22,641 bases of DNA from a virus, in the IMG/VR virus record IMGVR_UViG_3300008110_000554, positions 1-22,641 of that record, one strand, 5' to 3'. Of this stretch, positions 3,057 through 21,836 are shown in pieces. The stretch's first letter is position 1. The number at the start of each line of letters is the position of its first letter. Below the pieces are notes generated by a model that saw only the letters and a program-made list of their open reading frames with translations, did no database searches and was not told the origin of the DNA. The translations under genes and the position numbers were made by a program.

Positions 3057-3689
3057 TTAAAAACCCAAATATCTAGTAAAATCTCCTTTAAAATATTGAA
3101 CAAATCCTGTCCAATTATTTATTGAAGATGCTCTGTTTACACTAGTTGAATTAAACAATGCTACTTGGGAAGGATCCCCCATAATAGACCATTGTAATGA
3201 TAGTACTGAGTATAAATCATATGCTGTTGTTGGGTCTTGGTTTTTTACACGATCGTGATCGGATTGGGAAATTTCAAAGTAAATTAATTCATTATTTTTT
3301 TTACAAAAATAGCGTATAAAGTAACCACGTTTTTTATCTTCAGCAGTAGGTAAAGTTAAATTAAATTGAGGGATAATTCTATCTTGAGGAGTAACAATGC
3401 TACTATATTGATATTTTGGTTCTAAAATATTGGTTATGATCAAATTATTAGCAGGAGTTTGAAGTTCTCTACCTACTTCAAGATTGCTTAAAAGTGGTGA
3501 ATATGGGTATAAAGGTAAACTTGGACTTTCTTGAGGATTTTTTCCTGTAAAAAGTTGTCCTGTTGAAGTTTTATAGTAATACCCTATATAAGATTCAGCA
3601 ACTGAGGAAAATTGATTTGAAGTGGTAGTATATTCTCCCCCATTAGTGTATAGATCTGTCTTAACTTGGGATTTAGGGTAATATGCCAT
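3057..3689 (-). CDS. unknown protein, probable tail/baseplate component
   Basis: A 210-residue protein without a signal peptide or membrane segment. It begins MAYYPKSQVKTDLYTNGGEY and contains SYIGYYYKTSTGQLFTGKNP, a Pro-rich stretch (SPSLPLYPYSPLL) and a strand-rich second half with RGYFIRYFCKKNNELIYFE. I do not recognise a family. It is the last gene of the hub/hydrolase block: its start is 15 nt after the preceding stop, and the spacer reads ACATATTTATTAAT, a variant of the leader motif seen before other genes here. The next gene downstream belongs to the replication block. Co-transcription with the hub genes suggests a baseplate or tail-tip role, by context only. Confidence 0.65.
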   Translation of the reverse strand: MAYYPKSQVKTDLYTNGGEYTTTSNQFSSVAESYIGYYYKTSTGQLFTGKNPQESPSLPLYPYSPLLSNLEVGRELQTPANNLIITNILEPKYQYSSIVTPQDRIIPQFNLTLPTAEDKKRGYFIRYFCKKNNELIYFEISQSDHDRVKNQDPTTAYDLYSVLSLQWSIMGDPSQVALFNSTSVNRASSINNWTGFVQYFKGDFTRYLGF

Positions 3690-3703: not shown

Positions 3704-4585
3704 TTAAACGTATACTTCTGTTTTGGAAGGATCATAGGTAAAATGCCAATCTTCATTAACAGATTTACCTTCATACCAAGACCATCCATATTTAACGCCA
3801 TTTTTCTTAATCCAATCTTGTACATTTTTAGGTTGAATATCAATAGCTTTACCCCAACCATGGTTTGAAGTTCCAGGGAATGCTGCCGCTACATTCTCGG
3901 TTTTTATTTTACGTCTTTTAGCTCCAGCTTTAGGAGAAGTATCATTATATGATCCACCAGTAGCTACATAATATTCCCAGTCAAATATAGCCGTTTGGGC
4001 TTCATATGTTCTGTAAGAAGAACCTAAAACAGGATTTAAACCTTCTTTTTTCATGTCTTCTACCATTCTTAAATATGCATCTGCAGCTTCAACTGCTAAT
4101 TTATTAATTCCTCCTACGCTTTTTAAAGCACTATCAGGAAGTCTTCCATTCCCACCTTCGGTACCTGCAGGTATGTTAACTGTAGGGGCAGTATCAACTT
4201 GGGCTTCTTCAGATTGGGCAGCAAATGAAATACTACTAGTTATGATATTGTCTATAGGGCCGGTTTTAGGGATTAATGTAGTAGTAACATTAGTTTCCCA
4301 ATCACCGCCTTGAATCTTATGATCTATTCCTGTCACAATAAAATCAGTTGTTTTAGTGTATCCAGGGGGTAAAAAACTAGTATCTATAGAAAGTTCATTG
4401 TAAATCTTAATTCCACTAATACCATCCATAGTAAATGAAATGTTAAAGGGGATAAAACCAATTGATCCAGCAGATTGTTTTTGTTTTCCTTCAGTATCTT
4501 TTTGTTTGCCAGAGACTAAGACTTTGAAGTATTCAGTTGCTACTTCTAAATTTTCATTTATTCTTGAATCTACAAAATGTGGCAT
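3704..4585 (-). CDS. hub-tail protein with C-terminal M15 (VanY/L-Ala-D-Glu type) peptidase
   Basis: 293 residues in two parts. Residues 1-131 are a structural domain shared at roughly 80% identity with the gene just upstream; motifs include SAGSIGFIPFNISFTMDGIS and GIDHKIQGGDWET, which resemble the C-terminal end of baseplate hub proteins. A Gly-rich linker (about 135-155) leads to an M15 peptidase domain (about 156-290) with SYRT at 190-193, a PGTSNHGWGKAIDI block giving the zinc ligands His242 and Asp249, and EDWHF giving Glu278 and His281. M15 enzymes cut peptidoglycan cross-link or stem peptides; fused to a hub piece this would open the wall during infection. Only 3 nt separate it from the upstream stop. 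Start ATG 4585-4583. Confidence 0.85.
   Translation of the reverse strand: MPHFVDSRINENLEVATEYFKVLVSGKQKDTEGKQKQSAGSIGFIPFNISFTMDGISGIKIYNELSIDTSFLPPGYTKTTDFIVTGIDHKIQGGDWETNVTTTLIPKTGPIDNIITSSISFAAQSEEAQVDTAPTVNIPAGTEGGNGRLPDSALKSVGGINKLAVEAADAYLRMVEDMKKEGLNPVLGSSYRTYEAQTAIFDWEYYVATGGSYNDTSPKAGAKRRKIKTENVAAAFPGTSNHGWGKAIDIQPKNVQDWIKKNGVKYGWSWYEGKSVNEDWHFTYDPSKTEVYV
4193..4585 (-). repeat. copy 2 of the duplicated hub-tail domain
   Basis: Encodes residues 1-131 of the M15 hub-tail protein. I counted about 23 differences in 131 residues against the copy at 5162-5554, with no gaps, from MPHFVDSRINENLEVATEYF through the SFAAQ.EEAQ segment. Similarity ends sharply where the catalytic domains begin. 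Confidence 0.9.
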
Positions 4586-4588
4586 AAT

Positions 4589-5554
4589 TTAAAAGCTTCC
4601 GTAAAGTTTTATAATTAATTCTTTAACTTGAGCTAAATATGCTATTCTATCTTTAAATGATTTATCAGGACTATTTGCAGATATAGCTTCTTGTTTCATA
4701 ATTTCATATACTTTTTGATAAGATTTATTATTCTTACTAAAAAGACTAACTGGATATCCCCATCGTTCAAAAGTAGCCATTGCTGCTAGCATTTCTTCGG
4801 CATTAGTAGCCTGGGCAATGAAAGGTTTTGCGATGCCATCAGTGTAACCACTTCCGGGTTGGAGTTCAGCATATAAATAAGTTAATTGACCTTCAAGTGT
4901 AGAATCAGTTCCTGGGGATACTTTTGCTAATTGGGTTCTTCTATTTCCTAGCCATTGAGCGATTCCAAAAGCGTTAGATGTTGGATTTACTGCTAGAGGA
5001 TTTAATTTTCCTCCAGATTCACCCATTATTGCTGCTACTATACCTGCAGCTTTCCATTTAGGGTATCCTTTTTGGTCTATAAAGAATCTTAAAGCTTTTT
5101 CTACATTATCTCCTCCAGTAAGTGGAGCAGTTGAACCAAGCGTAACTGGGGCAGAAATATTATCAGCTTGAGCTTCTTCGGTTTGAGCAGCAAATGAAAG
5201 GCTACTAGTTATAACATTATCTATAGGACCGGTTTTAGGAATTAAAGTTACGTTTATACTAGTTTCCCAATCACCACCTTGAATCTTATGATCTACACCT
5301 GTTACTATAAAGTCTGTAGTTTTTGTATATCCTGCAGGAAGAAAATTAGTATCTAAAGCTAATTCATTGTAAATTTTTATCCCACTTATACCATCCATAG
5401 TAAATGAGATATTGTATGGAATAAAACCTACAGAACCTGCTGATTGCTTTTGTCTGTTTTCAGCATCTCTTTGTTTGGAAGCAACTAAAGTTTTAAAATA
5501 TTCAGTTGCTACTTCTAAATTTTCGTTTATCCTTGAGTCTACAAAATGTGGCAT
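4589..5554 (-). CDS. hub-tail protein with C-terminal phage tail lysozyme domain
   Basis: 321 residues. Residues 1-131 are the same hub-tail domain as in the next gene downstream. After a linker (about 132-150), residues 151-290 form a lysozyme-like domain of the phage tail lysozyme type. KAAGIVAAIMGESGGKLNP contains the probable catalytic Glu179, followed by NAFGIAQWLGNRRTQL and LEGQLTYLYAELQ, then a conserved-looking FERWGYP. The final 30 residues are helical and extend beyond the domain. It would cut the glycan strands of peptidoglycan from the baseplate, complementing the peptide-cutting M15 enzyme encoded 3 nt downstream. The start ATG 5554-5552 is 8 nt after the hub-like gene's stop, so hub and hydrolases are probably made together. 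Confidence 0.83.
   Translation of the reverse strand: MPHFVDSRINENLEVATEYFKTLVASKQRDAENRQKQSAGSVGFIPYNISFTMDGISGIKIYNELALDTNFLPAGYTKTTDFIVTGVDHKIQGGDWETSINVTLIPKTGPIDNVITSSLSFAAQTEEAQADNISAPVTLGSTAPLTGGDNVEKALRFFIDQKGYPKWKAAGIVAAIMGESGGKLNPLAVNPTSNAFGIAQWLGNRRTQLAKVSPGTDSTLEGQLTYLYAELQPGSGYTDGIAKPFIAQATNAEEMLAAMATFERWGYPVSLFSKNNKSYQKVYEIMKQEAISANSPDKSFKDRIAYLAQVKELIIKLYGSF
5162..5554 (-). repeat. copy 1 of the duplicated hub-tail domain
   Basis: Encodes residues 1-131 of the tail-lysozyme hub protein, colinear with 4193-4585. Most changes are conservative and concentrated in residues 22-34 (a charged, probably exposed stretch) and 98-103. The block FTMDGISGIKIYNEL is identical in both. Confidence 0.9.
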
Positions 5555-5562
5555 ATAATAAC

Positions 5563-8196
5563 TTATTTATTTGGAAAACATTCCCATATTTTACCAGCTC
5601 CTTCAATCCCAAAACATCTTGCAGTCCAATTCATTGCTGATTGGAAACTTGCAACTGTGTCTTCTACATCATTTTTAACTCCATTTTGTTGGGTTTCTAC
5701 ATCAGCTGCTACTAATTCAGTTTTAAATCTATCAGTTAATCCATCATTCCACCTAGCAAATGCAGTTGCTTCTGTTCCTTTAACATATCCATTCGCAGTT
5801 GCTCCTACTGTAACCATAGTAGCATATTCTGGTGTAATAGCGGTTTTTAAATCAACTTTTCTAACAAATGTTGAAGAATCTTTAGGATTAGTAACCCCAT
5901 TACCATATCCATAGAGTTGAAGTTTATATCCTGGGTTAATGGATTCTCTTGGTATAGGGGTAGAATCAAAAATACGCAGGGTATTTGAATCTTCATCTAT
6001 AATAGGTTCTAAGTTATTAACACCTGCTAAAGCTTTGTTAATTCCATCACACATGGATTTAATAAAATCATAAACTGAAATATTTCCTCTATCATCGGAA
6101 TTGGAAGTCATACTTTCTGCTATGAAATTAAAATTTAAATATACATTCATAGAATCAGCTGTATTATTTTTGCTTGTATCTTGCCAAGGTTTTAATTGCT
6201 TAAATATATTTTGTTTCCAAGAATTTTCTCTATTAAAATTTTCTCGAGATACAATACAAGTTCTCCAATCAAATGAAATTTGAAGTGGAAGACAACACAT
6301 AGGAGAAAATCCAGTATCAATATTAAAAAGACCAGGCTTATCATCATAATTTGCTCTTGTTAAATTAATTTTAGTAATTACTTTTTTCTTTAATAAATTA
6401 AGTAAGTAACCAAATCGTATATAATACTGGGGTTTGTCTAGGTTTAATACAAAAGCATCTTGTTCTTCATAACCTGTTCCTTTTAATGGATTTGAAATTT
6501 CTTGTGTGTTTTTTGCATCAGCTGATTTACTGGTTTCTTCGGTAAATTTAATATCGTTCTCTTCTAAACTATATGTACTATTTTCAATACTATTTTGAAT
6601 ACCATCACTAAGTATGTTTATTGGGGTAATAGATTCATTTCCGTTATCGGTTTTAACTTTTTTTTCTTTTTTAAGGCTAAATCCAGGGACTTCATCAAGA
6701 AATGATTTTCTAAAAATAACTACGGGATTATTTTGTACCTCTTTATTTTTTTCAGTTAAAACTTCTGATTCTCCATATGTTTTTTTGAATTCTTCATATT
6801 GTTTCCATTCTGTATCACTAAATGTTTTTGATCTAGAGAAGGTTCTAAAGGCATATTTATTTCTAAAAACAACTTTTGCAAATTCTGCGGCTCCTCTTCC
6901 TTCTATTTTGTAACCGTATCCTTTAAAATATTCTGCTCCTTTACTTTTTTCTTGTTCTGGAAGGGTTGTAACGAGGTCTAGGGCTTCGTTAAAAGTTAGT
7001 TTTCTTCCAGTAGTTTTATAATATCCTTCAACTAATTTATCAGAAGATATAAATTCTCCTGTATTTGTATCTTTAAAACCAACTGTAGTAGTTAGTGTTA
7101 AAGTATAATCACTAAATTTAATAGTTGAACCACCTATTGTAAGAAGTTTTCCAGGATAAGCAGTTTGTTGGCCTCCGGTTTCAATCGTAATAGGAGTTCC
7201 TGTAGGGTTTTGGTTTAATACTCTTAAAGTATGAAGAAGAGATAATATAATATTATCTTTTCTATGTTGGTCTAATGTATCATCTTCTGTTATCCATGCC
7301 GTGCCCGTCTGATTAACGTATTTTAATGTATTATAAGAAGCAGGTACATTAGTTTTTAAAGATTCAACTATATCACCTAAACTAATGATGGTAAGTTCTA
7401 CGCTATATGAACCATCGGAGTTAAAAGACCAATTAAAATTTGAAACTTTACCTAATAAGGCATCAAAATTTCCATTATATAATTCTCTAACTTTAGCTAT
7501 TTGAGTAGTAATATCTGAATATGATTTATCGGTTCCATAGGCTGAATTAAACCAACCATTGTTGTCTTCAATAAGAGAAGTATACATTTGTTGTAATCTT
7601 CCGTATTCAATTCTATCTCCTTCTGGTGTAGTACGGTTTTCTGAAGCGAGGTAGATTGAATTACCCCATTCAATTAAAACTGTGTATCCTAGACGCATAT
7701 ATAGAACGTCTAAAATAGCAAGTTGGTCTCTAGTTTGAGCAGTAAGTTTAACAGTAGCTTTTTTTAATGAACCTCGATTTAAAGATTTTACATCTAAACT
7801 TTCTATACCAGGCATTGGAACTATTCCAAAATCATTGCTAAGAGCACTATATGCTCCGTTAGGACCGAAAAATTCTGTTTTTTGGTTTAAAACTCCATTT
7901 CCTCCTTGACTAATACCCATTTCAGAAATACCACCAAATAAAACATATTTTTTGGCAAGGCCCATTCCTTTTAAATCTGTTAAATCTTGTGCATTTTGAA
8001 ATCCAATTTCTTTTAATTTATCTTCTGAAATGGATACTCCTGATGCCATTTTAATAAAGGCATTTCTTGCATTAGCATAGAGTAAAGTTTCATCTGTTCT
8101 TAACAAATCAGAAGAAATTCCACTACCATAAGATGCTTGTCTAACTTTTATTTGGTTTTTAACATAATCTGGGATTTGTTCTCCTAATAGTGCCAT
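5563..8196 (-). CDS. large baseplate hub-like structural protein
   Basis: 877 residues, no signal peptide or membrane segment. The region around residues 120-185 has the pattern FGIVPMPGIESLDVKSLN, then LKKATVKLTAQTRDQLAILD and LYMRLGYTVLIEWGNSIY. I associate this with gp27-type/hub proteins of contractile-tailed phages, where a long beta-rich module is followed by the line on which the protein contacts the tube. The C-terminal part (about 790-877) ends before the fold seems complete, and the next two genes begin with what looks like the missing final hub segment, so the hub may be split between this gene and its two downstream partners. A charged insertion lies around 480-560. The function rests on position between gp53 and the hydrolases plus the weak motif resemblance. 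Confidence 0.65.
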   Translation of the reverse strand: MALLGEQIPDYVKNQIKVRQASYGSGISSDLLRTDETLLYANARNAFIKMASGVSISEDKLKEIGFQNAQDLTDLKGMGLAKKYVLFGGISEMGISQGGNGVLNQKTEFFGPNGAYSALSNDFGIVPMPGIESLDVKSLNRGSLKKATVKLTAQTRDQLAILDVLYMRLGYTVLIEWGNSIYLASENRTTPEGDRIEYGRLQQMYTSLIEDNNGWFNSAYGTDKSYSDITTQIAKVRELYNGNFDALLGKVSNFNWSFNSDGSYSVELTIISLGDIVESLKTNVPASYNTLKYVNQTGTAWITEDDTLDQHRKDNIILSLLHTLRVLNQNPTGTPITIETGGQQTAYPGKLLTIGGSTIKFSDYTLTLTTTVGFKDTNTGEFISSDKLVEGYYKTTGRKLTFNEALDLVTTLPEQEKSKGAEYFKGYGYKIEGRGAAEFAKVVFRNKYAFRTFSRSKTFSDTEWKQYEEFKKTYGESEVLTEKNKEVQNNPVVIFRKSFLDEVPGFSLKKEKKVKTDNGNESITPINILSDGIQNSIENSTYSLEENDIKFTEETSKSADAKNTQEISNPLKGTGYEEQDAFVLNLDKPQYYIRFGYLLNLLKKKVITKINLTRANYDDKPGLFNIDTGFSPMCCLPLQISFDWRTCIVSRENFNRENSWKQNIFKQLKPWQDTSKNNTADSMNVYLNFNFIAESMTSNSDDRGNISVYDFIKSMCDGINKALAGVNNLEPIIDEDSNTLRIFDSTPIPRESINPGYKLQLYGYGNGVTNPKDSSTFVRKVDLKTAITPEYATMVTVGATANGYVKGTEATAFARWNDGLTDRFKTELVAADVETQQNGVKNDVEDTVASFQSAMNWTARCFGIEGAGKIWECFPNK

Positions 8197-10567: not shown

Positions 10568-10999
10568 TTAAATAAAGTCTGAATCTTCGTATTTGGTTCC
10601 TGCTACTGAAGTGTATATTGGCTTAAAAGAAGGATCAGCACTATCAGGATCATTTAAATCTAATGTTGTTGGAGCCGGGATAGGATTATAAACTCCATCG
10701 GCGTATGCATTGTAATTTTTTACAGTTGTAAAACCTGATGGGGATTGATATCCTCTAACAGACCATCCTTCAGTACCTGATTTAAAATCAAAGTGAAGGG
10801 TTGATTGTTTTGTAGCTAATGGATTTATATCAGGTGTATTTCCATCATATTCTGAATAGGTAGATCCGTCTCCATTAAATTCAGGAAGTATAGGGGTTTG
10901 GTCTATAGGAGAAATATCGTTTCCAAAAGATGGACTATTCGGTCCAGCTCCATAAGCTAGAGTTGATCCACCTTGTTGTAATAAATCTAATAAACCCAT
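10568..10999 (-). CDS. small structural-looking protein, paralogue of the upstream gene
   Basis: 143 residues, acidic, Gly/Pro/Asn-rich, no hydrophobic core long enough for a membrane segment. It shares a scaffold with the 91-residue protein just upstream: MGLLDLLQQ, then YSEYDGNTPDINPLATKQS.LH, then YNAYADGV.NPIP.P..LDLN. This copy carries an extra insertion of about 30 residues after MGLLDLLQQGGS and a C-terminal extension ending YEDSDFI. Its sequence does not match a family I know. Position between the tape measure and the baseplate genes suggests a small tail-tip or baseplate accessory protein. Start ATG 10999-10997, only 7 nt after the paralogue's stop. Confidence 0.65.
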   Translation of the reverse strand: MGLLDLLQQGGSTLAYGAGPNSPSFGNDISPIDQTPILPEFNGDGSTYSEYDGNTPDINPLATKQSTLHFDFKSGTEGWSVRGYQSPSGFTTVKNYNAYADGVYNPIPAPTTLDLNDPDSADPSFKPIYTSVAGTKYEDSDFI

Positions 11000-11006
11000 A
11001 ATTTAA

Positions 11007-11282
11007 TTATTGTGGTGGATCTTGTAAGTATGGAGTAGGATTAGTACCGTTTAAATCCAATTGAGATGGAAAAGGTAAAGTATTTGTTACACCATCTAAA
11101 TAAGCATTATACTCATTATTTACTTGTGCTCCAAATGCTCCATTTAATGAATATCCAGCCATACCAGCACCATTAGCATGTAATTTTGATTGATTAGTTG
11201 CTAAAGGGTTTGTTGGTGGTTGAGTACCATCATATTCTGAATAAGATGATCCTTGTTGTTGAAGTTTATCTAAAAGTCCCAT
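11007..11282 (-). CDS. small structural-looking protein, paralogue of the downstream gene
   Basis: 91 residues: MGLLDKLQQQGSSYSEYDG, then NPLATNQSKLHANG, YNAYLDGVTN and LPFPSQLDLNGTNP. It is the shorter, apparently minimal version of the 143-residue neighbour; the shared blocks appear in the same order with a deletion after the first ten residues. There is no known domain. It directly follows the tape measure gene and is preceded by a copy of the TTATAAATAT leader motif (11294-11303), which may mean that transcription or translation is reset here and that this small protein is needed in quantity. Start ATG 11282-11280. Confidence 0.65.
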   Translation of the reverse strand: MGLLDKLQQQGSSYSEYDGTQPPTNPLATNQSKLHANGAGMAGYSLNGAFGAQVNNEYNAYLDGVTNTLPFPSQLDLNGTNPTPYLQDPPQ

Positions 11283-15048: not shown

Positions 15049-17013
15049 CTATCGAATAAGATTAACATTTCCGCTTATAACTTGGTCATTGTCTGTTTCT
15101 TTAAAACCAAATTGAATTTTATATGTGTACAATCCTACAGGACAAGGTGTATTGTTATATGTTCCATCCCAATATTCTACATAGTTATACGATTCATAAA
15201 TTAATTCTCCCCAACGATTATAAATTTCTAAATGAAAATCATATGGGTCAAATCCATTTGTAAATACAGGCTGAAAAACATTGTTATGTTCATTTCCATC
15301 TGGGGTAAAGGTATTTGGAATATAAAACAATAGTTCAGGGCAACGTGCTACTGTAATTGTAGTTTCTTGAATGGGGGAAGCACATCCATTTGAATAATGT
15401 ATTACCGATAAAGGAAACATTCCTGTGTTAGTGAATGCAATTGATATATCATCTTGTTGATACGTTGTACCTATAAACGTCCATTCATTATATCCAGGTA
15501 AGTTAGATAAAGCAGTAAATAAAGTTACTACTGAATCGCCTTCACAAATTTCATAAAATGGATTGTATGGAGAAATTGAATCAAGTGTTGGTTGAGGGTA
15601 TACTGTTACAGTAGTTGTTGTATCAAAAGTACATCCACTCAATGTATATTCATAATTAATAACATTTGTTCCTACTGCGGTTGATGGAAAAAATTCATTA
15701 CCTATAATACCCACACCACTAATGATTCCTCCAACAGGATTTACGTTTAAAATAACAAATTCATCGTATTCACAAAATGGTCCTATAGGATCAATTGTAG
15801 GTAAAATGTTTAAAATAAATAAATCAATAGTTACAGGTAATCCAGTACATCCATTAGCTTCTGGGATTACTTGGATAGCTCCTGGAATAAATCCTGCAGG
15901 GAATGAACTAAAATCTACTGTAACGATATTGGTTCCTTGTCCTGAAGTAATAGGAGCAACACTACTCCACAAGTAATTGTATCCTGCTATTGCAGGTACA
16001 TCATACATTTCGTATGAGCTTAAATAACATATTGTATCTAATCCATTAATAGGACCTAATGATGGAATTGGTGGGCCAGGAACAACTAACACAGTATCAG
16101 GCCCTAAACCAGTACCTCCATTACAAGTAGACCAACCAGCGTTACAAGTTGGGTAAGTTAAATGGCAAGTATATTGAGTTGGTCCATTTGGAGTTACATT
16201 AATAGTAGGACCTGTTCCAATTGGATTTGGGTTTCCAACTTGATACCATGTTAAAGTAGGAGTAACTACTGGTCCTGATGGTGTCCATCTCCAAGCATCG
16301 TTTGTAGCGATCCAAGCAGTTGAGTTTCTACCAGGTACAGCAATTCCTACAGTACCGGCAGCATTATGAATTCCTTGGGTTGCCGTTCCACCTTGCCATT
16401 GTAAACAAGGGGGTTTGTTTTGAATATGGTTTTCGATGTAGTTAGATGATTCATAAATTACAATATGGAATGTACCTTGATTAGAAGTACAACTAAACAT
16501 AGGCATGTTTATCCAACTTACTGTTAACTTTCTACAAGGTGCAACTCCACTTGTTTGATATCTAATTTGCCCTCCAATACCAGGATGCCAATCCTGCCAA
16601 GGACCCATAATACAATTTTTAGGTACTAAAAAATTATTCGTTGGAATAGGTTGGGAGGTAAATGTAGTAGGTTGTCCTGGGGAGAATGAAATCCAACCAT
16701 TTGAACCTACATAAAATTGGGTATATGTTTGTCCAAAGAAACAAAATGTAAACCCAATATTAAATGGACCCTGTTGAGTATCATCACCCATAAACAATTG
16801 AGTGCCTGTATTTGTTTGAGCAACATATGGTATGTTAGAAACACCGTAATTTGTTGTTTGATTGGGGTTTGTGCCTGTACCACATTGACTTAAATTTGCG
16901 GTTAAAGTTGTTGATCCTACACCACAAGGCAATATTTGATCAGGTCCTAAAGCAGGACAATATTGACCATATCCTACAAAGGCCAATAAAAGAAATATAA
17001 ATAGTTTTTTCAT
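15049..17013 (-). CDS. secreted protein with T9SS type B (gliding-motility-type) sorting domain
   Basis: 654 residues, unlike any virion protein around it. It has a Sec signal peptide (MKKLFIFLLLAFVGYGQ, cleavage near residue 16-18). A host-type N-terminal ectodomain (about 60-240) contains GFTFCFFGQTYTQFYVGSNG, IMGPWQDWHPG and IHNAAGTVGIAVPGRNS, segments I associate with surface proteins of Flavobacteriia. Ig/PKD-like repeats with paired cysteines follow (about 250-555). The C-terminal domain (about 558-654) has YIPNTFTPDGNEHNN, LEIYNRWGELIYES, YWDGTYN, PVGLYTYKI and the ending SGNVNLIR, the pattern of the T9SS type B sorting domain. It would be exported by Sec and then by the host's type IX system to the cell surface. 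A terminator separates it from the tail tube gene, so it behaves like a moron. Role unknown: superinfection exclusion, surface modification or host-cell adhesion are possibilities. Confidence 0.88.
   Translation of the reverse strand: MKKLFIFLLLAFVGYGQYCPALGPDQILPCGVGSTTLTANLSQCGTGTNPNQTTNYGVSNIPYVAQTNTGTQLFMGDDTQQGPFNIGFTFCFFGQTYTQFYVGSNGWISFSPGQPTTFTSQPIPTNNFLVPKNCIMGPWQDWHPGIGGQIRYQTSGVAPCRKLTVSWINMPMFSCTSNQGTFHIVIYESSNYIENHIQNKPPCLQWQGGTATQGIHNAAGTVGIAVPGRNSTAWIATNDAWRWTPSGPVVTPTLTWYQVGNPNPIGTGPTINVTPNGPTQYTCHLTYPTCNAGWSTCNGGTGLGPDTVLVVPGPPIPSLGPINGLDTICYLSSYEMYDVPAIAGYNYLWSSVAPITSGQGTNIVTVDFSSFPAGFIPGAIQVIPEANGCTGLPVTIDLFILNILPTIDPIGPFCEYDEFVILNVNPVGGIISGVGIIGNEFFPSTAVGTNVINYEYTLSGCTFDTTTTVTVYPQPTLDSISPYNPFYEICEGDSVVTLFTALSNLPGYNEWTFIGTTYQQDDISIAFTNTGMFPLSVIHYSNGCASPIQETTITVARCPELLFYIPNTFTPDGNEHNNVFQPVFTNGFDPYDFHLEIYNRWGELIYESYNYVEYWDGTYNNTPCPVGLYTYKIQFGFKETDNDQVISGNVNLIR
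15052..15342 (-). other. T9SS type B sorting domain (part of the secreted protein)
   Basis: Encodes about residues 558-654. The hallmark elements are PNTFTPDG (near 566), YNRWGE (near 598), YWDGTYN and a basic C-terminal end LIR. In Bacteroidota such domains are recognised by the type IX translocon and mark surface or secreted proteins. Confidence 0.85.
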
Positions 17014-17625: not shown

Positions 17626-19350
17626 TTATCCGGGGAATTCAGCTCCTGTAGGCATTAAGATAAAATCTAACGAAATAAATTCAGCTGTACGTGTTGGTTG
17701 GATATAAATTTGACCGATTAATTGGTTTTGATCAATTACTGCTGGGCCATTGTTTGTATCATCCATAACAACTTTATAAGCATATAATCCTTGTTTTTGT
17801 TGGATTCCTTCTAAATATGGAGTAACTCTTGCGATAAATGAATTTCTGGTTGTGATTGTATTTTGTTCAAACACTACTGTATCTGCAATTTGACGAATAT
17901 AGGATTTTAATTCAATCATTAAACGACGTACATTTACACGATCTAAAGCAGATTGAGATTTTTGTAATGTTTTCTGACCGTATACTACTACACCTTGTTG
18001 AGGTAATGTTGCAATAGGGTTAATATTATTACTGTATAGCGTGTCACGATTACCTTGTGTCAATTTCAATTCAGCTTGAAGAACTGTACTTAATCCACCG
18101 CGGTTAATACCTGCTGGGGCAAACCAAGGGGCAGATACTTTATCGTTAAATGCATATACACCCGGAATTACTGTTGAAGCTGGTACCCATACTTGTTTTC
18201 CTGTTCCTGGATCGATAATACGAACCCAAGGGAAATAAGTTGCAGCATATGAAGTATCACGAGTTTGAGCTTGTATTGTAGCACCTCCTACTGTTGTTCC
18301 GTATACTCCTAAATCCATTACATACATGCTATCACCTCTAGCAATTGTATTATTGATGATGTTTGTAACTTGAGCGGTATGAGTATCATTTAATAAACCA
18401 GGAGCAAATAATAAATTGAATTGATATGCTTCAGCATTACCCATCAATGCAATCATATTATTATAACTAGCACCAATTAATCCTTGAGTGTTAGTTGAAA
18501 TTTTATCATATAAATTGATAGTAGTATTTGCATTTCCTGTAGCACTTGTAAATGAACCACCTGCTGAACCACTACCATTTAATGGAATAGATGCTGTGTA
18601 AGCAGATACTGCAATACCATTTGAATCAAAATAGTTTGGAGTAGGGAAGTTAACTGTTTTAACACGAACATATTGGGACATATTTGGATAACTTCCAGAT
18701 AATTCCATTTGGTTCGTAGAAGAATTGTAGTTTAGTACTTGATCACCAATTACTTGAGAAATGTAACGGTTTGAGTTAGGATCAAGTGTTAAATTGTTCC
18801 ATGATTCTAGTACAGTTTTATTAGCTTCAGTGTCATTACCACGTCTAATTAATACATTAAATGTACCTGATCCAGTATTTGAATTTGTAATCTCCCAACG
18901 AACATTATCAAATGATCCTGAGGTTAAAGATCCAGAAGCTCCAAGCATATTTGAGCCTGAATTATTCATAGTTGTACCTTCAGAAATTGTTTCTAAAACA
19001 AATGAAGCAGAAGTTGCATTTAAGTAATTAGAAATTGTAGTACTTTGAGCTGAAGACCAGTTAGCTGATTCAGTTACTACACGAGCAACTAGTAATGAAG
19101 TTCCTCCGTAATTAAAGTAATTATAAGCAGCAATTGAAGTTAAATAAGAATAAGATTGGCCACCACTAATAAAAGTATCTCCAAATTTTGTTACAAAATC
19201 TGAATATGAGGTTACTAAGGTAGGAGTTTCAATTGGACCTTTAACTGTTGGGCCTATAATAGCGGCACCAGCTTGAACAGGTTGTCCAGTCAAATAAGTA
19301 TTATCTATTTCGCTAATTGCTACTCCAGGGGAAACTGTAAAATTTGCCAT
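17626..19350 (-). CDS. gp18: tail sheath protein, copy 2 (gp18 family)
   Basis: 574 residues of the contractile sheath family. The N-terminal part has SPGVAISEID, AGAAIIGPTVKGPIETPTLV and TSYSDFVTKFGDTF. The C-terminal core has GINRGGLSTVLQAELKLTQG, YGQKTLQKSQSALDRVNVRR, LMIELKSYIRQIADTVVFEQ and IGQIYIQPTRTAEFISLDF. The middle (about 100-280) is variable and Ser/Thr/Asn-rich, where the sheath's protruding domains lie. The protein would polymerise around the gp19 tube and contract on infection. It follows another complete sheath gene by 46 nt and precedes the tube gene by 47 nt. Start ATG 19350-19348, leader motif at 19363-19372. Confidence 0.92.
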   Translation of the reverse strand: MANFTVSPGVAISEIDNTYLTGQPVQAGAAIIGPTVKGPIETPTLVTSYSDFVTKFGDTFISGGQSYSYLTSIAAYNYFNYGGTSLLVARVVTESANWSSAQSTTISNYLNATSASFVLETISEGTTMNNSGSNMLGASGSLTSGSFDNVRWEITNSNTGSGTFNVLIRRGNDTEANKTVLESWNNLTLDPNSNRYISQVIGDQVLNYNSSTNQMELSGSYPNMSQYVRVKTVNFPTPNYFDSNGIAVSAYTASIPLNGSGSAGGSFTSATGNANTTINLYDKISTNTQGLIGASYNNMIALMGNAEAYQFNLLFAPGLLNDTHTAQVTNIINNTIARGDSMYVMDLGVYGTTVGGATIQAQTRDTSYAATYFPWVRIIDPGTGKQVWVPASTVIPGVYAFNDKVSAPWFAPAGINRGGLSTVLQAELKLTQGNRDTLYSNNINPIATLPQQGVVVYGQKTLQKSQSALDRVNVRRLMIELKSYIRQIADTVVFEQNTITTRNSFIARVTPYLEGIQQKQGLYAYKVVMDDTNNGPAVIDQNQLIGQIYIQPTRTAEFISLDFILMPTGAEFPG

Positions 19351-19396: not shown

Positions 19397-21169
19397 TTAA
19401 GAAGGAAATGTTGCACCAGTAGGTAATATATTGAAATCAAGTATAATAAATTCAGCTGTTCTTGTTGGTTGTAAATAAATTTGACCAATTAATTGGTTTT
19501 GATCTACAACACTAGGAGGATTATTTGTTTCATCCATTATAACTCTAAATGAAGTTAAGCCTTGTTGTTGTTGAACTAAAGATAAATAAGGATTAACTAA
19601 AGATAAAAAGTTATTTCGTGTGATTTCGTTATTTTGTTCAAATACAAATGTATCTGCTACTTGAGAAATATAGTTTTTAAGTTCAATTAATAAACGACGT
19701 ACATTAACTCGATCTAAAGCAGTAGTTCTTTTTTGGAGCGTTTTTTGTCCAAATACTGTTATTGCAGACCCGTTAGCAGTAGCAACATTTGCAATTGGGT
19801 TTACATTGTTTTTATAAAGTAAATCTCTATTTCCTTGGGTTAATACACGTTCTGTCTTAACAACAGATGTCATTATACCACGGTTAATGCCTGCAGGTGC
19901 AAACCAAGGATAAGCAATAGCATCATTTTGTGCGTATACTCTTGGAATCATGGTTGCTGTAGGAACCCAAACTAAATTAGAAGTATTTGGATCTACTGTA
20001 TATAACCAAGGCCAATAAGCAGCAGCATATGAAGTATCTTTTGTTTGTGCACTAGTAACTACTGGGTTGATATTAGATCCGTATCCTACTACATCGGTTA
20101 CTACCATAAAATCTCCTCTTTGTTGAGCTAAAGTAATCATTTGATTTACTACACTGTTATGTAAAGGGAAATTTGTTGGGTCAGCTATTAAACCTGGGGC
20201 TACTAATAAGTTATAGTTATAGGCATCTTTATTTGCTAATAAAGAAATAGATTCAGTGTATGCGTTAGCTGTTAAACCTTGGATATTAGTATTAGAAATA
20301 TTTTCATAATATGCACCTGGAGTACCAGTTGGGATAATATTTCCTTTTCCATCACCAAATACACCACTTTGAGTTACTGGGATAGATCCTGTATATTGAG
20401 ATTTAGGATTTCCAACATTATCAAAATAGTTTGGAGTAGTTTGGTTTACTTGTTTAACACGAATATAAGAAGATTGATTTGGGTAACTTCCAGACATTTG
20501 AAGATAATACTCTCCATTGTCTTGTTGAATAGTTTCTACTTGGTTTCCAATTACTTTTTCAATATAGTTTGAAGCAAATGGATCAAGTGAAAGAGGACCC
20601 CAAGTTTCTAGAATAGATTGTTGAACACTTGAATCATTTCCTTGACGTAGTACTAATGTAAAAGTTCCACTATTTGTATCAGGAGAAACAATTTGCCATC
20701 TGTAATTTTCTGAGGAACCAGAAAGTAATGTATCATTTGAGCCTGTAGGGCCAACACTATTCATAATAATACCTTCAGATAATGTTTCTAAAACAAAAAC
20801 ATTGGTATTATATGGTGCACCTGCGGGTTGTGCAGATGCAGAAATAAATGATGAAGTAGCAGGAGTCCAATCTGTTGTTGTACTTCCACTTACTACACGA
20901 GTAACTAATAAAGTATTTCCACCACCAGCAAAGTAATTATATGCTGTAATTGATGTTAAAAAAGTATAAGTGCTACTTCCACTAAGAAAAGTAGCACCAA
21001 ACTTATTTAAATAATCTGTATAGGATGTTACTAAAGTAGGGATACCTACTTTACCTTTTACGGTTGGTCCAATTATAGCAGCACCTGCTTGTACAGGTTG
21101 TTGAGTTACAAATGATTGATCGTTCTCTATTGCTAATACACCAGGTGACGAAATAACAGTTTCTGCCAT
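19397..21169 (-). CDS. gp18: tail sheath protein, copy 1 (gp18 family)
   Basis: 590 residues, a tandem paralogue of the next gene. Shared blocks are QPVQAGAAIIGPTVKG, PTLVTSY.D...KFG.TF, APGINRG, a TQGNRD.LY.NN.NPIA segment, GQKTLQK..ALDRVNVRRL and IYLQPTRTAEFIILDF. Conservation is strong at both ends (about 60% by eye over the first 85 residues and higher in the C-terminal core) but weak in residues 110-290, including indels, so the two sheath versions differ mainly in the exposed domain. Both copies are full length with intact C-terminal cores, so neither looks like a decaying copy. Start ATG 21169-21167, with the leader motif at 21183-21192. Confidence 0.92.
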   Translation of the reverse strand: MAETVISSPGVLAIENDQSFVTQQPVQAGAAIIGPTVKGKVGIPTLVTSYTDYLNKFGATFLSGSSTYTFLTSITAYNYFAGGGNTLLVTRVVSGSTTTDWTPATSSFISASAQPAGAPYNTNVFVLETLSEGIIMNSVGPTGSNDTLLSGSSENYRWQIVSPDTNSGTFTLVLRQGNDSSVQQSILETWGPLSLDPFASNYIEKVIGNQVETIQQDNGEYYLQMSGSYPNQSSYIRVKQVNQTTPNYFDNVGNPKSQYTGSIPVTQSGVFGDGKGNIIPTGTPGAYYENISNTNIQGLTANAYTESISLLANKDAYNYNLLVAPGLIADPTNFPLHNSVVNQMITLAQQRGDFMVVTDVVGYGSNINPVVTSAQTKDTSYAAAYWPWLYTVDPNTSNLVWVPTATMIPRVYAQNDAIAYPWFAPAGINRGIMTSVVKTERVLTQGNRDLLYKNNVNPIANVATANGSAITVFGQKTLQKRTTALDRVNVRRLLIELKNYISQVADTFVFEQNNEITRNNFLSLVNPYLSLVQQQQGLTSFRVIMDETNNPPSVVDQNQLIGQIYLQPTRTAEFIILDFNILPTGATFPS

Positions 21170-21182
21170 GTTTATATTTTAT

Positions 21183-21192
21183 TTATAAATAT
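21183..21192 (-). promoter_or_regulatory. TTATAAATAT leader motif before sheath copy 1
   Basis: Minus-strand ATATTTATAAATAAA, ending 13 nt before the ATG at 21169. This copy is palindromic and contains the T4 late octamer TATAAATA in the sense direction too (21187-21180). Confidence 0.6.
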
Positions 21193-21836
21193 TAATAAGT
21201 CCACAAATATCCATAAGCTGTTTTCTGTTTTTTTCTACAACATGATGCTATATTATCTCCTGGCTTAGAATTAAAATGTCTTTCAGCTTCATTAGCACTT
21301 TTCCAAGTTTTAATGAAATTTCCTCTAATATCATATTGACTAACAAATTTACCTGGTCGAGGGGTAAGATGAAAGGAAAAGTCTTGAAGAGGAGAATATG
21401 ACCATATAAATCCTCCAGCTAGCTTGGTATTCTTTTTTAGACATCCATCTATATCAACAGGGTATTTTTGTTTAGCTTCTTTTATACTATCCCATAAATG
21501 AACTAAATCCCCGTTTGTATTGTATTGGTATATTTTTTTACGTAGTTTTAATACTGTTTTTTTAATAGACTCAGGAGACTTAAATGAGGTACCTCCTCCT
21601 CCATTATTTTTATTTAAAACTACAAACCCCCACTGTTTAAATTGTTCTATCCAATAGCATTCTAAAGGTTTCCAATCTTTTGAGTTAATTGAAGGAATTT
21701 GATCTATTACTCCAAATTTTATTTGCTTACCATGTGTTAAATTATGACAATACTCTCTAGATTTGGGATTAACAGTTTTACCGATATAAACTTGATCAGA
21801 TGATATTTCTACTAGATATATGTAAGTGCATTTCAT
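21192..21836 (-). CDS. GIY-YIG homing endonuclease with NUMOD-like repeats
   Basis: 214 residues. The GIY-YIG domain (about 4-80) has TYIYLVE, VYIGKT, Arg27, the catalytic-type Glu59 in PLECYWIEQF and VLNKNNGGGG. Two NUMOD1-like DNA-binding repeats follow (about 102-147 and 165-214), each of the form Y..NG...  W.S..EA and a closing G(F/Y).W.Y: YQYNTNGDLVHLWDSIKEA and SQYDIRGNFIKTWKSANEA. Such free-standing enzymes (Seg type in T4) cut DNA of related phages lacking the gene and copy themselves and flanking markers by recombination. It is intact, sits between a small coiled-coil gene and the first sheath gene, and carries its own leader motif. Its stop codon shares bases with the motif of the next gene. 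Confidence 0.9.
   Translation of the reverse strand: MKCTYIYLVEISSDQVYIGKTVNPKSREYCHNLTHGKQIKFGVIDQIPSINSKDWKPLECYWIEQFKQWGFVVLNKNNGGGGTSFKSPESIKKTVLKLRKKIYQYNTNGDLVHLWDSIKEAKQKYPVDIDGCLKKNTKLAGGFIWSYSPLQDFSFHLTPRPGKFVSQYDIRGNFIKTWKSANEAERHFNSKPGDNIASCCRKKQKTAYGYLWTY

Follow-up and report, generated by a model that had tools for sequence, protein, structure and literature searches.

Contractile phage tails are usually depicted as machines of strict three- or six-fold symmetry that carry one puncturing enzyme set. In phage T4, the hub is gp27 and a single lysozyme is held in a separate spike protein, gp5. Enzymes carried on gp27-type hubs are nevertheless known already. The hub gp15 of cyanophage A-1(L) is a gp27-type trimer with hydrolases, whose endoglucanase and peptidase domains were both active in assays (PMC10966104; PDB 8kea), and gp147 of Bacillus phage 0305phi8-36 is an enlarged homologue of gp27 that bears peptidase domains for cutting peptidoglycan, in which conserved structural domains are fused to exchangeable ones (PMC2147016). 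The "evolved" VgrG proteins of type VI secretion systems also form hub-fold trimers: VgrG1, VgrG2 and VgrG3 of V. cholerae are paralogues with different C-terminal effectors for which a heterotrimer has been proposed, although that work finds the requirement to lie in having several effectors and not in the heterotrimer itself (PMC8668125).

The locus described here resembles these systems and differs from each of them. In the parts of the A-1(L) account used here, all hydrolases lie in one chain and every subunit carries all of them, whereas here they belong to separate genes with different ends. The hub of 0305phi8-36 is one gene, and the portions of its description used here mention no duplicated C-terminal hub piece (PMC2147016); the VgrG paralogues are whole VgrG genes of a bacterial secretion system, as far as the consulted sections of that work describe them (PMC8668125). 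The closest named relative, gene 237 of Flavobacterium phage immuto (MW353176.1), shares the order of hub body, a shared domain that we call the socket, and M15 carboxypeptidase, but the three are fused and in single copy, and the hub is ~27-29% identical. The titles and abstract openings of the open-access literature that we searched held no phage hub with separate, multiplied C-terminal cassettes. Enzymes on gp27-type hubs and proposed VgrG heterotrimers are established ideas; one body served by separate, multiplied C-terminal cassettes appears to be new.

The source is a 22,641-base virus fragment (IMG/VR record IMGVR_UViG_3300008110_000554), referred to in its full length as the window. 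The features concerned are the following.

5563..8196, minus strand: hub body gene, 877 aa, without the C-terminal socket that fused relatives hold within the gene
4589..5554, minus strand: gene A, 321 aa, socket plus Phage_lysozyme2
5162..5554, minus strand: socket A (gene A residues 1-131), a conserved helix (residues 8-25) and then the last hub strands
4703..5107, minus strand: Phage_lysozyme2 domain (PF18013), gene A residues 150-284
3704..4585, minus strand: gene B, 293 aa, socket plus VanY/M15 peptidase
4193..4585, minus strand: socket B (gene B residues 1-131), 83% identical to socket A
3728..4102, minus strand: VanY/M15 domain (PF02557), gene B residues 162-286
3057..3689, minus strand: YYPKSQ protein, 210 aa, conserved downstream gene, function unassigned

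The hub body lies 8 nt upstream of gene A, and 3 nt separate A from B. An earlier note on this DNA had described the two adjacent genes as about 80% identical over 131 residues and divergent thereafter, in agreement with our BLASTP comparison, in which 109 of the 131 N-terminal residues are identical (83%, gapless, E 3e-82) and no significant similarity was detected past residue 131. Ungapped DNA identity per 30 nt runs at 70-93% across the first 390 nt, drops abruptly at ~390 nt and stays at 20-40% beyond. Across the 131 codons there are 38 silent and 22 residue-changing differences (6 silent and 1 replacing in the first 24 aligned codons), and because of this excess of silent changes we conclude that A and B are two maintained protein-coding copies and not an assembly repeat. 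The same gene pair is also present in a second contig.

The two genes carry different enzymes. Gene A is made up of the socket, a linker and a Phage_lysozyme2 domain (E 8.4e-16, 58.9 bits against a curated cut-off of 28.2), with GESGG at residue 178, whose Glu we take to be a candidate catalytic residue. Gene B matches VanY (E 3.3e-17, 62.9 bits against a cut-off of 25) and contains SNHGWGKAID (240) and DWHF (279), the zinc-ligand motifs; family match and motifs together place it among the VanY/M15 D,D-carboxypeptidases. This confirms the earlier assignment of a lysozyme to one gene and an M15 peptidase to the other. Pfam found no spike domain in gene A, and its predicted structure past residue 148 contains, at low confidence, helices only, so that gene A does not show the OB-fold and beta-helix of a T4 gp5-type spike-lysozyme.

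We further investigated how relatives of this locus are organized. Relatives were collected by scanning viral contigs and genome contigs, and local HMMs were applied to recognize the N-terminus of the hub, the socket and the YYPKSQ protein gene, a downstream marker that ends the hydrolase block. The resulting 397 loci fell into 156 groups, 127 of which were complete with hub, socket and marker, the other 29 being omitted since one of the three was absent from the available stretch. The census is a sample, with at most the best 80 loci per viral scan, and excludes two pieces of the window itself. The marker, which matches no known family in Pfam or PHROG, comes after the hub-hydrolase block in the majority of the relatives (249 ORFs, counting those from overlapping loci). 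Bacterial and archaeal genome contigs contributed one distant relative; among named phages, hub relatives appeared in four immuto records, a single unannotated record of an uncultured phage matched weakly, and the remaining matches were to the enzyme part only.

Body and socket are fused in one gene in 101 of the 127 complete groups. Elsewhere, the hub is split mid-body with the socket on its second half (14 groups), the body is followed by two sockets (seven, window included) or three (three), or three entire hub paralogues stand in tandem (two, L100 and L214); the latter phages come closest to multi-VgrG spikes. Of the complete groups, 115 have one socket, 7 have two, 5 have three and none has more, a group with a broken second copy (L379) being scored as two-socket. 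The fused form, a search for which the earlier note had proposed as a check, is thus the common one, and it is also that of immuto35A_237, whose 938 aa hold body, socket and M15 in a single gene and to which the 877-aa body of the window aligns.

The 877-aa protein has no Pfam family, and neither it nor the fused relative L161 matches a PHROG hub. A hub profile produced a chance match only against PDB sequences, and residues 79-210 of gene A matched the baseplate hub phrog_196 weakly (E 0.0069). Because hub sequences lack a Pfam or PHROG hub match, the fold assignment rests on structure comparison. We predicted the structure of L161 (residues 1-867, 66 sequences; pLDDT 81.9, pTM 0.80), a relative whose hub body is ~45% identical to that of the window in the best segment. 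Window socket A is homologous to model residues 759-856, where the socket forms a helix (759-779) and strands from 793 to 851, in blocks mostly at pLDDT 77-92. In a second-look structure comparison, the best match listed was the A-1(L) hub at Z 12.2 (260 aa, 3.2 A), ahead of Mu gp44 (Z 11.4), T4 gp27 (Z 10.9 over 218 aa) and VgrG1 (Z 9.6). All four alignments extend to L161 residue ~850 or further, that is, to the socket end, and the matches listed are hub, baseplate, tail-tip or VgrG proteins. Foldseek alone returned four matches at E <= 0.001, likewise baseplate or eCIS proteins.

The model suggests a hub of the gp27/gp44/VgrG type for L161, in which the socket makes up the C-terminal strands; it is for this fused relative that the gp27/gpD-type fold (body plus C-terminal strands) was predicted. 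Gene A predicted alone scored poorly (pLDDT 57.4, with a thinner alignment), as would be expected for a piece that needs its body. Because relatives are fused and the socket lies inside the L161 hub fold, the split in the window falls within what is elsewhere one hub chain. Homology and the model of the fused relative therefore support the proposal of the earlier note that the shared 131-residue domain forms the C-terminus of a hub that has the 877-aa gene product as its body, and indicate that the hub encoded in the window is split and comes with two C-terminal ends that can be interchanged. Likening it to T4 gp5 as a hub-lysozyme did not hold: the likeness to T4 gp27-gp5 (PDB 1k28) lies in the gp27 hub fold, C-terminal part included, and the part homologous to the socket is the end of gp27, not gp5.

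The hub sits in a baseplate cluster with phrog_7145 (wedge-like), phrog_167 (tape measure), phrog_150 (hub), phrog_4542 (tube) and sheath genes. Two adjacent tail sheath paralogues (17626-19350 and 19397-21169, minus strand) each contain Phage_sheath_1C and Phage_sheath_1, and a GIY-YIG/NUMOD1 endonuclease-like gene (21192-21836, minus strand) adjoins them. Two short adjacent proteins (10568-10999 and 11007-11282, minus strand) have N-termini that look alike by eye (MGLLD.LQQ). Within the tail cluster, a 654-aa protein (15049-17013, minus strand) combines a CHU_C type IX secretion signal (E 5.6e-14) with a PKD-like domain, and is apparently a phage protein addressed to the host's own secretion system. 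Since immuto infects Flavobacterium and this window protein bears a type IX signal, the host is probably a Bacteroidota bacterium.

We then asked how often several enzymes accompany one hub. With socket-borne ends scored from 100 aa upward, and separate genes ahead of the marker from 150 aa upward, hydrolases number none in 2 groups, one in 108, two in 12, three in 4 and four in 1. The last is L214, whose fourth hydrolase is a CHAP-like gene without a socket, so that not every hydrolase beside the hub occupies a seat. The claim of two hydrolases on one type of socket was upheld, some relatives holding three. A quick tree built from 131 hub N-termini needs no fewer than 8 changes to account for the multi-enzyme state, which was reached in different ways: the whole hub gene is present three times, the socket twice or three times, or a short plug stands ahead of the enzyme. 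In L116 and L242, a hub-socket without an enzyme of its own precedes two enzyme genes with a common short N-terminal stretch, and in L147 and L166 the fused end is Hydrolase_2-like and a VanY-like gene stands separately behind it. These hub-, socket- and plug-level arrangements mean that enzymes were multiplied at three distinct breakpoints. The plug would be a short helix ahead of split-off enzymes; with a small HMM, five split-off genes scored above the best shuffled control (10.7 bits) and the remaining ones did not exceed the shuffled controls, in partial support of the idea.

Glycan- and peptide-type labels were assigned by us from Pfam, PHROG, NCBIfam, PDB profile, BLAST and profile-profile results. 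Firm labels are Phage_lysozyme2, phage lysozyme, VanY, M23 and, for L117, M15_4; weaker ones are Hydrolase_2, GH19, SLT, CHAP and clusters named through PHROG or BLAST matches to endolysins, transglycosylases or metallo-endopeptidases. Three clusters from single-enzyme groups are presumed peptide-type from motifs spotted by eye only. PDB profile searches with four enzyme classes gave CHAP at E 0.097-0.14 for class 0 and weak or no matches for the others, and NCBIfam returned a single weak match across ten cargos. The end domain of the first hub of L214 (L214:8364-8993) had no Pfam, PHROG or NCBIfam match; by eye we take it to resemble an SGNH/GDSL esterase.

Among the 17 multi-enzyme sets, 11 are fully labelled, and each of these contains both a glycan-type and a peptide-type enzyme. 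Where the last enzyme of a set carries a label, it is peptide-type (15 of 15 sets), while in L171 a peptide-type enzyme comes first with an unlabelled partner. Independent draws at the frequencies seen in labelled groups with one enzyme (glycan 28, peptide 48; the 32 without a label set aside) give P = 0.00086, a value that overstates the case because related phages are not independent and several labels are weak. Altogether, the pattern turns up in several lineages, which reached it in different ways, and it combines an enzyme that cuts glycans with one that cuts peptides, a point absent from the earlier note.

Sockets and enzymes vary separately. Position-1 sockets are 84-87% identical between the window, L202, L203 and L205, whereas the enzyme behind them is lysozyme2 in the window and Hydrolase_2-like in the other three; at position 2, the window and L202 carry VanY and L203 and L205 carry M23. 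The third enzymes of L100 and L214 are 64% identical, and their first two are unrelated (16-19%). These sequence comparisons show the enzyme to be a swappable module behind a conserved socket.

In the socket tree, position-1 sockets of the window, L202, L203 and L205 cluster, and their last sockets cluster with those of L133 and L208, which excludes a recent duplication for this clade and points to paralogues that are old and retained, with several tree forks below the starred level. L100 and L214 sockets pair by position; their hub-body and socket trees disagree, and hub-body identities gave no clear homogenisation of the kind left by gene conversion. By contrast with the pairing by position, L136 and L197 copies cluster by phage, where duplication or conversion may be recent, and copies 2 and 3 of L207 are identical over their first 25 codons, likely a conversion tract.

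Our preferred reading, to which we give a probability of about 0.6, is that of a split gp27-type trimeric hub whose seats are filled with both socket versions, most likely in one virion. The 877-aa body and a 131-residue socket would together make up a subunit of a trimeric baseplate hub of the gp27 type, whose gene, judging from homology and the fused-relative model, was split ahead of the final part of the hub fold. That final part comes in two versions, bearing the tail lysozyme (A) or the M15 carboxypeptidase (B). Because the fold is that of its structural relatives, the hub should be a trimer in which every subunit needs a socket, and because each of the three seats would take one socket, both versions would use the same type of seat. 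A single baseplate would then present a glycan cutter and a peptide cutter for DNA entry; we favor the same virion over alternative virions because the enzyme types are paired. Against a mixed set weighs the fact that a single enzyme suffices in 108 of the 127 groups.

A stricter form of this reading, tentative and in our view falling somewhat short of even odds, is an obligate mixed hub, in which the three seats are deliberately given different enzymes, an outcome reached repeatedly through the three breakpoints and capped at three sockets because the hub has three seats. That sockets never exceed three in 127 groups is consistent with a VgrG-like heterotrimeric hub. A fixed 2:1 ratio or an obligate heterotrimer is possible.

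Sockets A and B, at 83% identity, could instead interchange between homotrimers, each virion hub being all A or all B, so that the progeny would be a bet-hedging mixture of lysozyme-type and peptidase-type particles. Sequence forces no mixing, but we consider this unlikely: the enzymes are complementary rather than substitutes in all fully labelled sets, and A-1(L) and 0305phi8-36, as far as the portions of their descriptions used here go, always hold two hydrolases together in one hub chain. There is also no sign of a switch. The long repeats are direct (the A/B repeat is 79% over its 300-nt reference) and a repeat check of both genes found no inverted repeat spanning A and B, leaving inversion-type switching between A and B unsupported.

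It is quite improbable that only one socket protein enters the virion while the other serves lysis or is an unused copy with a relic socket. Such a fate is seen in L209:3754-4896 (same contig as L379), a decaying cassette whose second socket is cut to 56 aa, so a second copy can be lost, and most relatives have a single socket. In the window, however, conserved residues are intact in both sockets and 38 of the 60 changed codons are silent, position-specific socket lineages have been retained across phages, and a comparison of 79 codons between the last sockets of L208 and L133 gives 25 silent but only 2 replacing differences.

Separate encoding in the window would also suit a socket that acts as an independent adaptor on the outside of hub or spike rather than as part of the hub subunit. 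We hold this to be very improbable, as the socket directly continues the hub body C-terminally in the 101 fused groups, the structural matches pass through it, and in 8 of 10 split-socket groups the gap between the hub stop codon and the start of the first socket has a length divisible by three, likely a trace of fission from one reading frame. Those in-frame gaps are all that speaks for readthrough or frameshifting that would make body and socket A a single chain, B then providing a second end, a prospect with next to no probability and ruled out by out-of-frame gaps in the window and L304 and by a second in-frame stop within the gap in 7 of the 8 in-frame groups.

On the preferred reading of a trimeric hub holding both socket versions, a separate and multiplied hub end would allow several wall-cutting tools per tail tip, exchangeable without altering the rest of the tail. 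If true, how a threefold machine carries an uneven enzyme set would become directly testable in a phage, and an obligate mixed hub, if true, would be the phage equivalent of the heterotrimer proposed for VgrG. Studies of modular tail-tip enzymes have a natural attachment point in the conserved socket.
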